From Microbacterium sp. BH-3-3-3 (GTDB taxonomy: Bacteria > Actinomycetota > Actinomycetes > Actinomycetales > Microbacteriaceae): a stretch of 64,000 nucleotides of DNA. A program made the position numbers and the translations under genes. The notes under the pieces are model-generated. The model was not told the DNA's origin. It saw only the letters and a program-made list of their open reading frames with translations, and made no database searches. Positions 54,089 through 61,103 of this stretch are shown one piece after another. Position 1 is the first letter of the stretch; every line of letters begins with the position of its first letter. The stretch lies in the NCBI RefSeq assembly GCF_001792815.1, contig NZ_CP017674.1, forward strand, positions 3,286,001 to 3,350,000, in the 5' to 3' direction.

Positions 54089-55885
54089 GTGTCTGAAAAG
54101 ACTCGGCGCATGCGCGCCCTTACGGCGGGAGCAGGAGTCGCGGTCGCGGCTCTGGCCCTTGCCGGTTGCACCACCACCGCCACCCCCGAGGGCGGTGCGT
54201 CGTCCACCGGCGGCACCGTCACCATCGCCACGACGAACGCGTTCACCTCGTTCAACGGCGACACCCCCGAGGCCAACCTCGACACCAACGGCATGGTCGG
54301 TTACCTGACCGGTGTCAGCGGCGGCCTGGGCCTCGGTGGCTTCCAGCGTCTCGACAAGGACTTCTCGATCCTCGACAACACCGACTTCGGCACGTACGAG
54401 ACGGTCTCCGAGGACCCCCTCACGGTCAAGTACACGATCAACGAGGGTCTCACCTGGTCGGATGGCGAGCCCATCAACGCCGATGACATGCTCGTCAACT
54501 GGGCCATCAACTCGGGCTACTTCGATGACGCCAAGCTCGACCCCGCGACCAGCGAGGTCACCAACGGCGGCACGCAGTACTTCAGCCTCGCCGGCAGCAC
54601 CGCGGGTCTCGACACCACCGCCTTCCCCACGATCAGCGACGACAACATGTCGATGACGCTGGTGTACTCGCAGCCCTTCGTGGACTACGAGCTCGTCAAC
54701 CCGATCGGCAAGCCGGCCCACGTGCTCGCCGAGAAGGCCGGCGTGTCGGAGTCCGAGTTCGTCGACCTGCTCAAGTCGCTGCCCGAGGGCAACCCCGACG
54801 CGCCCGTCGCCCCCAACGCGACGCTCAAGGCCGCGGCCGACTTCTGGAACACCGGCTACGACGTCACCGCCATGCCGACCGACCAGAGCCTGCTCGTCGC
54901 GAGCGGTCCGTTCATCGTGACCGACTTCACGCCCGAGCAGAGCATCACGCTGGGCAAGAACCCCAACTACAAGGGCGAGATGTCCCCCGCGTACGACCAG
55001 CTGATCATCCGCTTCATCGGTGACTCGAACGCTCAGGTCACGGCGCTCCAGAACGGTGAGGTCCAGGCCATCCAGCCGCAGGCCTCCGCCGACACGCTGA
55101 CCGCGCTCGAGAACGCGAACGCCACGGTCCACTCGGGCAGCCAGCTCGCGTACGACCACGTCGACCTGACCTTCGGCGGTGTCTTCGCCGACGCCAACGT
55201 CCGTGAGGCCTTCCTCAAGACGATCCCGCGCCAGCAGATCCTCGACTCGATCATCAAGCCGGTCAACCCCGACGCCAACGTGCTCAACTCGCAGATCTTC
55301 CTGCCCACCGACGGCGACCAGTACACCACCGCCGTCTCCTCGAGCGGATACGACGCGTTCACCGAGCCCGACATCGAGGGCGCCAAGGCGCTGCTCAACG
55401 GTGCCACCCCGACCGTTCGCATCCTCTACAACACCAACAACCCGAACCGTGTCGACAGCTTCCGCGCCATCCAGCAGTCGGCGCAGCAGGCCGGCTTCGT
55501 GATCGAGGACGCCGGTTCGCCCGACTGGAGCAAGCTCCTCGGCAGCGGCAGCTACGACGCGTCGATCTTCGGTTGGGTCTCGCCCGGTGCCGGTAACGCC
55601 GCGCTCCCGCAGATCTTCAAGAGCGGCGGCGGCGGTAACTACAACAACTACAGCAACTCGGCCGTCGACACCCTCGTCGACGAGACCCAGGTCACGGTCG
55701 ACACGACCAAGCTGGCCGACCTCAAGGTGCAGATCGACACGGCCACGGCGAAGGACTTCTACGGTCTGCCGCTGTTCCAGTCGCCCGGTCTGTTCGCTGA
55801 CAACGGTTCCGTGACGGGCGTCGACTACTTCGGCGGCCAGACCGGCATCGTCTGGAACGCACAGGAGTGGACGCTCGCGGGTTGA
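54089..55885 (+). CDS. Peptide ABC transporter binding lipoprotein (second)
   Basis: 598 residues. GTG 54089 has GGAGG 5 nt upstream. Lipobox LALAGC (Cys about 26), then SBP_bac_5 signature region GLTWSDGEPINADDMLVNW and a long peptide-binding domain ending in WNAQEWTLAG. Codon use is strongly biased to frequent codons, suggesting high expression. It heads the operon with the permeases and double ATPase. Probable role: oligopeptide uptake. Confidence 0.92.
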   Translation: MSEKTRRMRALTAGAGVAVAALALAGCTTTATPEGGASSTGGTVTIATTNAFTSFNGDTPEANLDTNGMVGYLTGVSGGLGLGGFQRLDKDFSILDNTDFGTYETVSEDPLTVKYTINEGLTWSDGEPINADDMLVNWAINSGYFDDAKLDPATSEVTNGGTQYFSLAGSTAGLDTTAFPTISDDNMSMTLVYSQPFVDYELVNPIGKPAHVLAEKAGVSESEFVDLLKSLPEGNPDAPVAPNATLKAAADFWNTGYDVTAMPTDQSLLVASGPFIVTDFTPEQSITLGKNPNYKGEMSPAYDQLIIRFIGDSNAQVTALQNGEVQAIQPQASADTLTALENANATVHSGSQLAYDHVDLTFGGVFADANVREAFLKTIPRQQILDSIIKPVNPDANVLNSQIFLPTDGDQYTTAVSSSGYDAFTEPDIEGAKALLNGATPTVRILYNTNNPNRVDSFRAIQQSAQQAGFVIEDAGSPDWSKLLGSGSYDASIFGWVSPGAGNAALPQIFKSGGGGNYNNYSNSAVDTLVDETQVTVDTTKLADLKVQIDTATAKDFYGLPLFQSPGLFADNGSVTGVDYFGGQTGIVWNAQEWTLAG

Positions 55886-56038: not shown

Positions 56039-58663
56039 ATGGTCGGATTCATTCTCAGGCGCATCGCCGTCTCGATCCTGGTTCTGCTTGCAGCATCGTT
56101 CATCATGTACGTGCTCGCCGCCAACGCCGGCGACCCCCTCCAGGACCTCCGCGACAGCACCGCCGCCAACCGCGACCAGCTGATCGCCGCCCGCGTCGCC
56201 GCGCTCGATCTGAACGTGCCCGCGCCGCTGCGTTACTTCCTCTGGCTGGGCGGCGCCGCCGGCTGCCTCATCCCCTTCGCCGGAACCTGCAACCTGGGTC
56301 TGACGATCAGCAATGCCCCCGTCCTCGACATTCTGCCCACCGCGGTCGGCTCCACCCTCCAGCTCGTGACGGCGTCGTTCGTGCTGGCGATCGTGCTGGG
56401 CATCGTGGTCGGTGTCGTCTCGGCTCTGCGCCAGTACAGCGGCTTCGACTTCGGCATCACGCTGCTGAGCTTCTTCCTCTTCTCGCTGCCGTCGTTCCTC
56501 GTGGCGGTGCTGCTGAAGGAGTTCCTGGCCCTCGGCTTCAACAGTTTCCTCGAGTCGGCCACCTCGATCCCGATCTGGGTGATCGTCCTCCTGGCGGTCG
56601 TGTCGGCCGTCGTCTGGCAGGCCATGATCGGCGGCGAGGCGCGTCGTCGCCTGATCGTCGGCGCCACCGCCGCCGCGGCGACCGTGGCGCTGCTGGTGTA
56701 CTTCAACGTCACCGACTGGTTCCGCAACCCCGGCTTCGGTCCCGTGGGCCTGCTGCTGATCATCGCCGGTGTGGTCGTCATCGTCACGGCCCTCATCGCC
56801 GGGCTCACCAACCGTCGCGCCCTCATCGTCGCGGCGCTCAACGGCGCGATCTCGTACCTCTGCTTCTTCCTGCTGCAGGGACTGTTCGACATCTCCACGC
56901 CCGCGACGATCATCATCATCGGCCTGGTCGCCGTGGTCGTCGGTCTCGCCACGGGCTACCTGCTCGGCGCCCCCGACCGCGGCATGACCGCGCGCATCGG
57001 CGGCCTCGTGGCGTTCCTGTCGTTCGCGCTCGTGATCCTCGACCGCTACATGCAGTCGTGGCCGGCATACGTCAACAACCCGCGCATCAACGGTCGCCCC
57101 ATCGCGACGGTCGGCGCCGTCACCCCCGGGTTCAACGGCGACATGTGGATCACGGGCATCGACAGCTTCACGCACCTGCTGCTCCCGACGATCTCGCTGC
57201 TGCTGATCTCGTTCGCGGGATACACGCGCTACGCCCGCGCCGGCATGCTCGAGGTGATGAACCAGGACTTCATCCGCACGGCCCGCGCCAAGGGTCTGCC
57301 GGAGCGGACGGTCATCCTGCGCCACGGCCTGCGCAACATGCTCATCCCGATCGTGACGCTCGTTGCAACCGACGTCGGAGCCCTCCTGGGTGGCGCGGTC
57401 ATCACCGAGAAGGTCTTCGCGATCTCGGGCATGGGTCAGCTGTTCGTGACCTCCATCCAGCGTGTGGACGTGAACCCGGTGATGGGCTACTTCATCGTCA
57501 TCGCGATCACCGCCATCGTCTTCAACTTCCTGGCCGATCTCGCCTACGCGGCGCTCGACCCCGAGTGCGAGTGGTCGCATGATCGCCGCCGTCCGATTCC
57601 CGGAGGTCTCCCGATGACTCAGATGCTTCCCGAACCCGCGAACGTCGATGCGCCGGTCCCGGCCGACGAGCGCGACACCGTCGGGGTGAGCCAGGGACGG
57701 CTCGTCCTGCGTCGCTTCCTGTCGAACAAGATCTCCGTCGTCTCCGGCATCCTGTTCGTGCTGCTGGCGATCTTCTCGATCTCGGCGATCGGCCTGGGGC
57801 CCATCCCCGGCTGGTGGAAATACGACTACACGTCGCTGAACCCGCAGAACGACGGCGGGGCGCCGACGCTGTCGGTCTTCCCCTTCTCGCTGGGCGAGCA
57901 CCCGTTCGGCCAGGACCGCATCGGCATCGACTACTTCGCGATGACCATGCGCGGCATCCAGAACTCGATCCTCGTGATGATCATCATCAGCTTCGTGGGC
58001 ACCACGGTCGGCACCGTCATCGGCGCCCTCGCCGGGTACTACCGCGGCTGGGTGGATGCCGTCCTCATGCGCATCACCGACGTGTTCATCGTCATCCCGA
58101 TCATCGTGATCGGCGCCGTCGTCGGTCGCGCGACGGGCGGTCTCGGTGTGATCCCGCTGGCGTTCTTCCTCGCGATGGTGTCGTGGACGACGATCGCCCG
58201 CCTGGTGCGCGCCGAGTTCCTGTCGCTGCGCGAGCGCGAGTTCGTCGAGGCCGCCCGCGTGGCGGGTGCCAGCGACGCGCGCATCATCTTCAAGCACATT
58301 TTGCCCAACGCCATCGGCGTGGTCATCGTGGCGGCGACGCTCCTCGCCGCCTCGGCGATCCTGCTCGAGACCGCGTTGAGCTACCTGCAGCTCGGCGTGC
58401 GCCCGCCCGACGTGTCGCTGGGCCTGATCATCTCCGACAACCAGTCCGCGTTCTCGACGCGCCCGTGGCTGTTCTGGTGGCCCGCGGTGTTCATCGTGCT
58501 GCTGGCGGTGCTGGTCAACTTCGTCGGCGACGGCCTGCGCGACGCGTTCGACCCGCGTCAGAAGCGCTTCTCGCTGCGTCGCACGAAAGAGACCTCGGCG
58601 TCGTCGACCACCGCTCCCGCGAGCACGCAGGCGCGGGTGCACCCGGAGACCCCGTCGTCATGA
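56039..58663 (+). CDS. Dipeptide-type ABC permease pair read as one 874-codon frame (DppB-like fused to DppC-like)
   Basis: As sequenced, one frame runs through two permeases. Residues 1-514 are DppB-like: helix 1 (FILRRIAVSILVLLAASFI), binding-protein-dependent EAA-loop region with RTARAKGLPERTVILRHGLRN, but with about 170 extra residues forming additional helices (190-365). Residues from 526 are DppC-like (see the entry at 57614). Between them the frame reads LDPECEWSHDRR, whereas one extra C in CCCC (57559-57562) would give LDPRVRVVA then TGA at 57580-57582, the ending typical of DppB/OppB. A true fusion or a 1-base deletion or sequencing error are both possible. Confidence 0.75.
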   Translation: MVGFILRRIAVSILVLLAASFIMYVLAANAGDPLQDLRDSTAANRDQLIAARVAALDLNVPAPLRYFLWLGGAAGCLIPFAGTCNLGLTISNAPVLDILPTAVGSTLQLVTASFVLAIVLGIVVGVVSALRQYSGFDFGITLLSFFLFSLPSFLVAVLLKEFLALGFNSFLESATSIPIWVIVLLAVVSAVVWQAMIGGEARRRLIVGATAAAATVALLVYFNVTDWFRNPGFGPVGLLLIIAGVVVIVTALIAGLTNRRALIVAALNGAISYLCFFLLQGLFDISTPATIIIIGLVAVVVGLATGYLLGAPDRGMTARIGGLVAFLSFALVILDRYMQSWPAYVNNPRINGRPIATVGAVTPGFNGDMWITGIDSFTHLLLPTISLLLISFAGYTRYARAGMLEVMNQDFIRTARAKGLPERTVILRHGLRNMLIPIVTLVATDVGALLGGAVITEKVFAISGMGQLFVTSIQRVDVNPVMGYFIVIAITAIVFNFLADLAYAALDPECEWSHDRRRPIPGGLPMTQMLPEPANVDAPVPADERDTVGVSQGRLVLRRFLSNKISVVSGILFVLLAIFSISAIGLGPIPGWWKYDYTSLNPQNDGGAPTLSVFPFSLGEHPFGQDRIGIDYFAMTMRGIQNSILVMIIISFVGTTVGTVIGALAGYYRGWVDAVLMRITDVFIVIPIIVIGAVVGRATGGLGVIPLAFFLAMVSWTTIARLVRAEFLSLREREFVEAARVAGASDARIIFKHILPNAIGVVIVAATLLAASAILLETALSYLQLGVRPPDVSLGLIISDNQSAFSTRPWLFWWPAVFIVLLAVLVNFVGDGLRDAFDPRQKRFSLRRTKETSASSTTAPASTQARVHPETPSS
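57559..57562 (+). other. C-run where a single-base deletion may have removed the permease stop
   Basis: CCCC sits in the frame GAC-CCC-GAG. Adding one C reads GAC-CCC-CGA-GTG-CGA-GTG-GTC-GCA-TGA, restoring the family ending and a stop 31 bp before the next start codon. Confidence 0.55.
57602..57606 (+). promoter_or_regulatory. Ribosome binding site for the second permease
   Basis: GGAGG 7 nt before ATG 57614. A strong, correctly spaced site inside the fused frame shows that independent initiation of the second permease is expected. Confidence 0.7.
57614..58663 (+). CDS. Peptide ABC permease, DppC/OppC-like
   Basis: 349 residues from MTQMLPEPANVDAP. A cytoplasmic N-terminus (about 40), a first helix (about 45-65), then the typical binding-protein-dependent transport fold with GALAGYYRGWVDAVLMRITDV, the EAA loop REREFVEAARVAGASDARIIFKHILPN and five more helices. 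It forms the membrane pore with the DppB-like partner. It has its own GGAGG. In this sequence it is in frame with the upstream permease. Confidence 0.85.
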   Translation: MTQMLPEPANVDAPVPADERDTVGVSQGRLVLRRFLSNKISVVSGILFVLLAIFSISAIGLGPIPGWWKYDYTSLNPQNDGGAPTLSVFPFSLGEHPFGQDRIGIDYFAMTMRGIQNSILVMIIISFVGTTVGTVIGALAGYYRGWVDAVLMRITDVFIVIPIIVIGAVVGRATGGLGVIPLAFFLAMVSWTTIARLVRAEFLSLREREFVEAARVAGASDARIIFKHILPNAIGVVIVAATLLAASAILLETALSYLQLGVRPPDVSLGLIISDNQSAFSTRPWLFWWPAVFIVLLAVLVNFVGDGLRDAFDPRQKRFSLRRTKETSASSTTAPASTQARVHPETPSS

Positions 58664-58683: not shown

Positions 58684-59286
58684 TCAGCCCAGGGCGACCG
58701 CCGCGACGAGACCGGCCGCGCCGGCCACGAGCAGCACGAGGTTGCCCGTGCGGACGCCCACGTGCACACGGACGTTCTCGGCGACGCCCGCCTCGATGCG
58801 TCCGGCTTCGCGCAGCGCGTGCCAGCGGGTGCGCACCATCTCGGCGGCGCGTCCGGAGTCGGTGTTCGGCAGCTCGCCGGGGCGCGTCTGCGGCGTCGAC
58901 GGGCTGTCGCTGCGGCGGTGGGCGCGGGCGGCGCGGAGCGATCCGGTCGCGCCGGGCGCCGGTGCGGCGGTGACGCCGATACGACGACCGGGCGTGTGCA
59001 GCTGCAGCGAGTACCGCGTGTCGACGTGGATGAGCGCAGCCCACGGCACGAAATAGCGCAGGGCGATGTTGTCGACCTGCACGCCGTCGTCGTCGACGGA
59101 CACCGACGGCGACCACAGGATGCCGGTGACCAGGGCGGCCGCTCCCAGCGCGCCCACGATCACGAGGGCGGGCGCCTCGCTCGCCCCGGGCGTGACGAGC
59201 AGACCGATCGCCACGACGGCGATGATCGCCCAGACGATGCCGCACAGGACTCGGGTGAACGTCGAACGGAACGTCTGGCGTGGCAT
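58684..59286 (-). CDS. Bacterial PH domain membrane protein
   Basis: 200 residues: two N-terminal helices (about 13-33 and 38-60), a bacterial PH-like domain starting SVSVDDDGVQVDNIALRYFVPWAALIHVD, a disordered Arg/Ser/Pro linker (about 120-140) and a last hydrophobic helix (about 180-199). It lies antisense between the permease and ATPase genes of the peptide locus, 20 bp from the permease stop. Relatives are of unknown function. Confidence 0.8.
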   Translation of the reverse strand: MPRQTFRSTFTRVLCGIVWAIIAVVAIGLLVTPGASEAPALVIVGALGAAALVTGILWSPSVSVDDDGVQVDNIALRYFVPWAALIHVDTRYSLQLHTPGRRIGVTAAPAPGATGSLRAARAHRRSDSPSTPQTRPGELPNTDSGRAAEMVRTRWHALREAGRIEAGVAENVRVHVGVRTGNLVLLVAGAAGLVAAVALG

Positions 59287-59348: not shown

Positions 59349-61103
59349 ATGAGCACGACCGAGAAGGCGGCCATCCCCGCCCTCGAGATGACCGACGTCA
59401 GCGTCGACTTCGCGGTCGACGACGTGTGGGTTCCCGCCGCGAAGCACCTCACCTACTCGATCGCGCGCGGCCAGGTCGTCGCGGTGGTCGGCGAGTCGGG
59501 CTCGGGCAAGAGCGTCAGCTCGATGGCCGTGCTCGACCTGCTGCCGCGCAACAGCCGCGTCACCGGCAGCATCAAGGTCAACGGCCGCGAGGTCACCGGC
59601 CTGTCGGCATCGCAGATGCGGCAGCTGCGCGGTCCCGAGGTCGCGGCGATCTTCCAGGAGCCGATGACGGCCCTGAACCCCGTGCTGACGGTGGGGTCGC
59701 AGATCATCGAGGCGCTGCGCGCGCACACCCCCATCGCTCCCACGCAGGCCAAGGCCCGCGCGATGGAACTGCTCGAGATGGTCGGGCTCCCCGACCCGGC
59801 CAAAGCCTTCGCCTCGTACCCGCACCAGCTGTCGGGCGGCCAGCGCCAGCGCGCCATGATCGCGCAGTCGATCAGCCTGGAGCCGGCGCTGCTCATCGCC
59901 GATGAGCCCACGACCGCGCTCGACGTGACCGTGCAGGCCGAGATCCTCGATCTCATCCGCGACCTGCGCGACCGCCTCGACTCGGCCGTGCTGCTCATCA
60001 CGCACGACATGGGCGTCGTGGCCGACCTCGCGGACTGGATCGTCGTGATGAAGTCCGGCGACATCGTCGAGCAGGGCCCCGCCGCGAAGGTGCTGGGCGA
60101 CCCGCAGGACGCCTACACGAAGGAACTGCTGGCCTCGGTCCCGCGCCTGGGCGAGACCCTCGAGGGCGAAGCCACGGTCGACGTCGTCGAGGCATTGGCC
60201 ACCGCGGTGGCCAGTGGTCCCGCCCGCACCGAGACGATCGCCCTCGCCGTCGCCGCCCCCGAGATCGCCCACCCGGTGCTGCAGCTCGACAACGTCTCGA
60301 TCGAGTACGGCAAGAAAGGACGCGTCGCCGCCTTCCGCGCCGTCGACGACGTCACGCTGGGCATCGCCGAGGGCGAGATCGTCGGACTGGTCGGAGAGTC
60401 GGGATCGGGCAAGTCGACCATCGGCCGCGCCGCCATCGGTCTGCAGCCCATCGCCGACGGTCGTCTGGTGGTCGACGGCGTCGACATCTCGAGCGGCTCG
60501 CGCAAGCTCATCAAGTCGCTGCGCCGCCGCGTGGGCATCGTGTTCCAGGACCCGTCGTCGTCGCTGAACCCGCGCCTGCCGATCGGCGAGTCCATCGGCG
60601 AGCCGCTGTTCCTCGCCGGCGAGGCCAAGGGCGCCGAGCTCGACGCGCGCATCGAGAAGCTGCTCGACGAGGTGCGTCTTCCGCGCAGCTACCGCAACCG
60701 TTACCCGCACGAGCTGTCGGGCGGGCAGAAGCAGCGCGTGGGCATCGCGCGCGCCCTCTCGCTGCAGCCGCGTCTGCTGGTCGCCGACGAGCCCACGAGC
60801 GCGCTCGACGTGTCGGTGCAGGCCCGCGTGCTCGAACTTCTCAGCGAGCTGCAGAAGGAGCACCGTTTCGCGTGCCTGTTCATCAGCCACGACCTCGCCG
60901 TCGTGGATGCCATGGCAGATCGCATCGTGGTGCTCAACCGCGGCAAGATCGCCGAGCAGGGCACCCGCGATCAGATCCTGCGCGCACCGAAGCAGCAGTA
61001 CACGCAGCGACTCATCGCCGCGATCCCGGTGCCCGATGTCGAGGTCCAGGCCGCTCGCCGCGAGCTTCGCCACGAGCTGCTGAAGGACAACCCGGCCTCC
61101 TGA
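59349..61103 (+). CDS. Dipeptide ABC transporter double ATPase (DppD-DppF fusion)
   Basis: 584 residues with two ATPase domains. First: Walker A GESGSGKSVS (about 53), signature LSGGQRQR, Walker B LLIADEPTTALD. Second: Walker A GESGSGKSTI (about 360), signature LSGGQKQR, Walker B LLVADEPTSALD. The cluster is the usual D/F pair joined, so the ATPase dimer is formed within one chain. ATG 59349 follows GAGAGGAC. It completes the peptide importer despite the intervening antisense PH gene. Confidence 0.94.
   Translation: MSTTEKAAIPALEMTDVSVDFAVDDVWVPAAKHLTYSIARGQVVAVVGESGSGKSVSSMAVLDLLPRNSRVTGSIKVNGREVTGLSASQMRQLRGPEVAAIFQEPMTALNPVLTVGSQIIEALRAHTPIAPTQAKARAMELLEMVGLPDPAKAFASYPHQLSGGQRQRAMIAQSISLEPALLIADEPTTALDVTVQAEILDLIRDLRDRLDSAVLLITHDMGVVADLADWIVVMKSGDIVEQGPAAKVLGDPQDAYTKELLASVPRLGETLEGEATVDVVEALATAVASGPARTETIALAVAAPEIAHPVLQLDNVSIEYGKKGRVAAFRAVDDVTLGIAEGEIVGLVGESGSGKSTIGRAAIGLQPIADGRLVVDGVDISSGSRKLIKSLRRRVGIVFQDPSSSLNPRLPIGESIGEPLFLAGEAKGAELDARIEKLLDEVRLPRSYRNRYPHELSGGQKQRVGIARALSLQPRLLVADEPTSALDVSVQARVLELLSELQKEHRFACLFISHDLAVVDAMADRIVVLNRGKIAEQGTRDQILRAPKQQYTQRLIAAIPVPDVEVQAARRELRHELLKDNPAS

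Follow-up and report, generated by a model that had tools for sequence, protein, structure and literature searches.

The window, that is, the whole stretch of 64,000 nucleotides that was analysed, corresponds to G000:C1:3286001-3350000 in a single-contig genome (G000) of 3,508,491 bases, whose nearest named relatives are Microbacterium. Positions 56039-58663 constitute a single open frame of 874 codons with an ATG start, encoding 874 amino acids, in which an OppB/DppB-like permease is followed by an OppC/DppC-like permease. As claimed in an earlier note on this DNA, the DppB-like frame runs into the DppC-like gene without a stop. The features of the locus are listed below.

54092..55885, plus strand: substrate-binding protein gene (SBP_bac_5), upstream of the permeases (Pfam); start picked by us, longest open frame from 53990
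56039..58663, plus strand: fused open frame, OppB/DppB-like plus OppC/DppC-like, 874 codons (open-frame listing, Pfam)
56039..57562, plus strand: oppB/dppB-like permease body, in the frame common to relatives until the break (protein, domain and structure matches)
57559..57562, plus strand: C run, site of the frame break, one base shorter than in the three nearest aligned genomes (alignment)
57579..57617, plus strand: putative relay micro-ORF, MIAAVRFPEVSR-stop, whose start (ATG) and the former oppB stop overlap in ATGA, as do its stop (TGA) and the oppC start
57580..57582, plus strand: TGA, the oppB stop in relatives, out of frame in the window (comparison with relatives)
57602..57606, plus strand: GGAGG, Shine-Dalgarno-like site of oppC, within the micro-ORF (sequence)
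57614..58663, plus strand: oppC/dppC-like permease with its ATG at 57614; P0122 is an identical, separate protein of 349 amino acids (Pfam, protein search)
59349..61103, plus strand: transport ATPase, a single chain carrying two ABC domains (Pfam); start picked by us, longest open frame from 59280

Pfam recognized BPD_transp_1 in two stretches of the fused protein (195.4 bits), covering both halves, and one OppC_N domain in the C-terminal half (28.2 bits against a cut-off of 23.9), which is the domain content of an Opp/Dpp-type permease pair. The gene context is also of the Opp/Dpp type, with a peptide-binding protein gene and an ABC ATPase gene adjoining the pair; the downstream ATPase presents two ABC_tran and two oligo_HPY domains. 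A bacterial PH-domain gene (bPH_6) lies on the minus strand, at 58684-59286, between oppC and the transporter ATPase. With the whole fused protein as query, the cut-offs of the named NCBIfam equivalogs (DppB, OppB, NikB, etc.) were not reached among the 25 rows shown, the best match being Opp4C with 253.9 bits against a cut-off of 350. Among solved structures, the closest in sequence are Rv1282c and Rv1283c from M. tuberculosis (8j5q) and the Opp/Dpp pairs from E. coli, including DppB/DppC (8z1v). In particular, the OppC half of the window matches Rv1282c over nearly its full length, and the OppB half matches by its C-terminal region, residues 358 to 510. The matched OppB/DppB chains measure 306 to 339 amino acids, whereas the window OppB, of about 510 amino acids, is some 170 to 200 longer. 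Different from the solved Opp/Dpp permeases (8j5q, 8z1v), which consist of two chains, the window encodes one; in the alignment of this fused chain, the two halves are in register only with a single separate OppC row.

The break between the two genes is at a C run, which reads CCCC in the window and falls within the last eight codons of oppB. In a search with a 500-base junction stretch (58 genomes, G000 included), three relatives cover its whole length with 87 to 88% identity and a single-base gap in the C run. In all three, the run is one base longer and oppB and oppC are separate. Run length is not the sole local difference, because the window has GAG next to the run, compared to GCG in the three nearest genomes. 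This alignment bears out, as more than coincidence, the one missing C that the earlier note had placed in the run at 57559-57562. The LDPRVRVVA-stop ending that the note had derived from it, with the TGA at 57580-57582, is the one carried by relatives, since DPRVRVVA closes the protein in all 18 closest Microbacterium copies (16 distinct records); the GGAGG and ATG that it had assigned to oppC are present as well.

Two observations go beyond that note, namely, a structural reason for the linker being open and a micro-ORF in the gap that overlaps both genes. As for the former, upstream of the oppC ATG no stop occurs in the oppC frame for 114 to 141 nt in any of the 14 close relatives examined; this open stretch extends 59 to 86 nt past the Pro codon of DPR (counted upstream in that frame). 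The reading frame of oppC being open where oppB ends, the loss of one base fuses the genes without further change. In this assembly, the oppB-like gene is one base short in the C run compared to its relatives, so that its frame misses the oppB stop, crosses the stretch that holds the micro-ORF in relatives and enters the oppC frame, encoding one permease chain of 874 residues. With the break in the last eight codons, both domains survive, as is expected of a tolerated mutation and not of errors scattered evenly. The residues of the fusion linker represent only a shifted reading of conserved DNA.

We compared the junction with 173 junctions in relatives, derived from 61 named loci, the three nearest genomes and 109 of the 117 non-own places in a family search; nine are duplicate records, so that 164 are distinct. 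Not one of the 173 is fused. The comparison of the C run in related genomes that the earlier note had proposed returned separate genes throughout, both in the 61 named loci of the related-loci search and in the three nearest genomes. OppB of this type turned up at 118 places in the family search, distributed over 115 of 299 genomes (G000 among them). The open frame has 918 codons in G000; the next, of 744 codons, belongs to a separate pair, and the others do not exceed 622. A stable fusion, selected to work as one chain, would agree with the presence of both permease domains, with a partner ATPase that is already a two-domain chain and with tight OppB/OppC coupling being the rule among the pairs examined. 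However, the same in-frame join with a conserved linker, which the earlier note had indicated as the sign of such a fusion, occurs at none of the 173 junctions (164 distinct), the near-identical protein P0002 is unfused, and the linker is a shifted reading of conserved DNA; we thus regard a stable fusion as very unlikely.

P0002, of 509 amino acids, is the best protein match of the fused frame, being 98 to 99% identical over its length and ending in DPRVRVVA; it is encoded on a contig of 7,663 bases. Judging by this sequence, a normally ending oppB copy close to this strain exists. Compared to the window, five internal residues (ALLVY) are absent in frame from P0002, which for this reason is not the same sequence as the window oppB. 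A search with oppC only retrieved P0122, a separate protein on a contig of 392,692 bases, identical to the window OppC over 349 amino acids. The best 120 of 2553 matches to the fused frame include neither a near-identical OppB other than P0002, such as a partner of P0122, nor any protein longer than 545 amino acids; an annotated oppB pseudogene on the P0122 contig would explain the missing OppB match. No identical protein is present among the matches listed for the binding protein, the best of which reaches 96%.

The lack of long proteins also touches on programmed +1 frameshifting at CCC-C, by which the fusion would be produced in relatives too and the window would have fixed the outcome of the slippage. 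According to our reading of the sequences, the same junction would arise in relatives if ribosomes slipped by +1 at CCC-C, and the oppC frame is open upstream in all 14 relatives checked. However, the shift-prone site is not conserved, occurring at 34 of 173 junctions (22 of the 47 with a wide gap that are described below and 12 of the 126 others), and nothing above 545 residues appears among the best 120 matches, even though a slippage product would go unannotated anyway. This mechanism seems to us extremely improbable. Of the four options listed in the earlier note, the stable fusion and the programmed frameshift are not supported, and a recent one-base loss and a sequencing error remain.

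Compared to either of the discarded options, a one-base loss that is specific to this genome record is very probable; by itself, the fusion is nothing more unusual than a private frame break or error. We screened 422 kb of the 3.5 Mb of G000, around the window, for frame breaks against the collinear stretches of two other genomes, G006 and G007. The comparison with G006 (196 open frames, 214,915 nt) flagged 10 uncompensated frame-changing indels in G000, and that with G007 (194 open frames, 224,690 nt) flagged 13. Using best-hit open frames, the oppB break is the only one flagged from both references over the 422 kb; of the other flags, nine were raised with G006 only and twelve with G007 only, and these reference-specific flags, some of which were checked, partly concern 5' ends, regions of poor alignment and frame breaks in the reference. 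The G000 assembly looks clean where tested, because the oppB break is the sole one seen from both references. With G000 open frames as queries, 31 flags were obtained for G007 (the oppB one included) versus 13 for G006, and G007 looks like a frameshift-rich, error-rich assembly. At G007:C1:583085-586120 (segment 394084-397120), an open frame of 1012 codons spans two genes that G000 and G006 both keep apart. Counting of indels in C/G runs was set aside, as real gaps were mixed with alignment gaps.

If the C run instead contains a leftover error of base calling or assembly, the one-base difference would be the same but its cause another, and the living strain would have two genes and an intact relay. 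Such an error would fit a join found in this assembly only (0 of 173 relatives), the normal end of the near-identical P0002, the homopolymer site and the occurrence of a similar fusion elsewhere in G007, which is rich in frame breaks. Moreover, singleton frameshifts are often errors, and for BLAST-validated ones the expected cause is sequencing error, not indel mutation (PMC3711429). On the other hand, the C run is short, no other break in the screened 422 kb of G000 is supported by two references, and the break sits in the last eight codons. A real deletion is favoured, since the screened part of G000 looks clean and the break lies in these mutation-tolerant codons, whereas errors would fall anywhere. 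We therefore lean, moderately, towards a real deletion, and consider an error a tangible possibility, although a somewhat doubtful one.

The second observation concerns the gap between the two genes. Junctions were classified by possible in-frame start codons and independently of annotation, so that a chance start near the stop is counted as direct; on this basis, a direct overlap is seen at 92 of the 173 junctions, a start no more than 8 nt away at 31, a gap of 17 nt at 3 and a gap of at least 30 nt between the oppB stop and the first possible oppC start at 47. In all 47 of the last class (39 of 39 distinct), the gap is bridged by a micro-ORF of 12 to 30 codons, which begins on the oppB stop and ends on the oppC start. 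The micro-ORF starts with NTGA in 44 of 47 loci and with TRATG in the remaining three (L157, L158 and L161). In 44 of 47, the micro-ORF runs into the earliest possible oppC start, and in L051 and L160, which are the same record, and in L157 it runs into a later one; the oppC start concerned is preceded by a Shine-Dalgarno-like match of at least 4 bases in 41 of 47 (counted by eye). The stop/start overlap or very short distance by which termination-reinitiation coupling is recognized is thus present in the relatives, judged by possible start codons, at all junctions but the three with a 17-nt gap; in the window itself, the first overlap is bypassed. The three junctions with a 17-nt gap (L246, L247 and L250) share one spacer sequence and have no bridging micro-ORF.

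The 47 loci fall into 22 spacer groups, all of which are bridged, compared to a bridge probability of 0.22 on average in length-blind shuffles of the spacers; products of such probabilities overstate the case, because the loci are related. In a tree comprising 165 distinct rows, presence of the relay requires 4 changes, at least 3 of which are forced. Among the 40 relay rows on this tree, the number of micro-ORF codons has changed at least 13 times, and the frame has always been kept; free changes in length would have broken it repeatedly, as far as these sequences tell. A conserved peptide was considered and rejected, in that the micro-ORF product differs among spacer groups, the frame being kept and the sequence varying. 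Chance or shared ancestry, with no relay at work, could account for the pattern, since the 4 changes on the tree correspond to far fewer events than 47 loci. However, the bridging of 22 distinct groups against 0.22 each by shuffling, the at least 13 codon-number changes, all in frame, and control gene pairs that stay at chance make this account unlikely.

The controls consisted of codirectional pairs of open frames whose first possible start lies 30 to 150 nt away. These open frames were obtained by a simple composition filter with unannotated starts, and the control is accordingly rough. A relay was found in 1 of 47 pairs in G000, 1 of 39 in G006 and 2 of 39 in G007, compared to shuffle expectations of 2.0, 0.85 and 2.4, respectively; the single match in G006 is oppBC itself, as is one of the two in G007. 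A genome-wide relay property was thereby rejected, with control pairs at chance level in all three genomes. A property of the whole operon was rejected, too, as the junction between the substrate-binding protein gene and oppB presents a relay in 0 of 53 cases (61 named loci, 8 of which lack the pair). At the junction between oppC and the ATPase, 53 of the 61 loci have no usable start, 2 have no pair, 4 have a near start and 2 have a gap above 200 nt. In a sample of 26 OppC loci from G000 and five genomes, a possible oppC start lies within 5 nt of the oppB stop in 20; the other six are the window fusion, one locus without an upstream OppB tail and four relay pairs already counted. Close OppB/OppC coupling is thus the rule in the sample, with the micro-ORF appearing where a gap would break it.

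The role of the micro-ORF is likely that of a relay for translational coupling, as its architecture suggests. In relatives, a ribosome that has finished oppB would begin again on the micro-ORF, terminate at the oppC start and initiate once more there; such a termination-reinitiation relay would maintain the coupling between the permease halves where direct reinitiation could not span the gap. The window would lack the first of these handovers, since its oppB has no stop at that point, and the relay would be bypassed; OppB and OppC are predicted to be made mainly as one chain, maybe with some separate OppC from its own GGAGG and ATG. It is possible to hypothesize that Microbacteriaceae have a selected oppB-oppC relay micro-ORF that is free in sequence and forms two stop/start overlaps where direct reinitiation could not reach across the gap, and that the one-base loss has here swapped this coupling for a covalent fusion, a proposal to which we assign an even chance of being right. 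If true, the locus would serve as a naturally occurring test of why OppB and OppC need to be produced jointly. The 22 groups of bridging micro-ORFs, sharing only frame and overlaps, represent natural variation at one junction, and the relay idea is directly testable with simple reporters, because every gap of at least 30 nt that was read is bridged. Furthermore, the overlap signature provides a way to find micro-ORFs missed by the annotation cut-offs for short open frames.

Coupling of this kind has known counterparts. Translational coupling has been described within ABC-transporter gene clusters (PMC3711429), and gene overlaps are enriched among subunits of complexes (PMC10666635). In gene pairs from E. 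coli and Haloferax, a distance of about 20 nt almost abolishes reinitiation coupling (PMC10666635), it being debated whether reinitiation can act over a distance or requires contact. As in ATGA/TGATG termination-reinitiation coupling (PMC10666635, PMC12548453), both junctions of the relatives' micro-ORF are of the ATGA type or TRATG, and the products are subunits of one complex; different from it, the relatives have two overlaps in series, which bridge a gap of about 34 to 88 nt that direct reinitiation reportedly crosses poorly. Among the open-licence papers listed, we recognized no report of a micro-ORF or relay overlapping on both sides between oppB and oppC; the architecture is well supported at the sequence level, and it would represent a new form of translational coupling with a putative function.

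Short open frames that deliver ribosomes, among them MIRUs with -4 nt coupling, have been reviewed (PMC12548453). Like the micro-ORF, the MIRU has a short open frame that adjoins a gene start with -4 nt coupling; however, MIRUs are described as repeats that are apparently mobile, whereas the oppBC spacers differ between groups and no second genomic copy was found. A MIRU-like repeat was in fact rejected, given that a 401-base junction stretch has three matches in G000 (E value of at most 0.001), only one of which, the junction itself, covers the spacer. Minigenes ahead of txe (PMC8708949) and a leader open frame that ends on the iraD start (PMC5574718) are also on record. In the iraD leader and in bicistronic design (PMC12548453), the stop of a short open frame falls on the start of the gene that it assists, as is the case for the micro-ORF; different from these, the oppBC micro-ORF additionally begins on the stop of the preceding gene.
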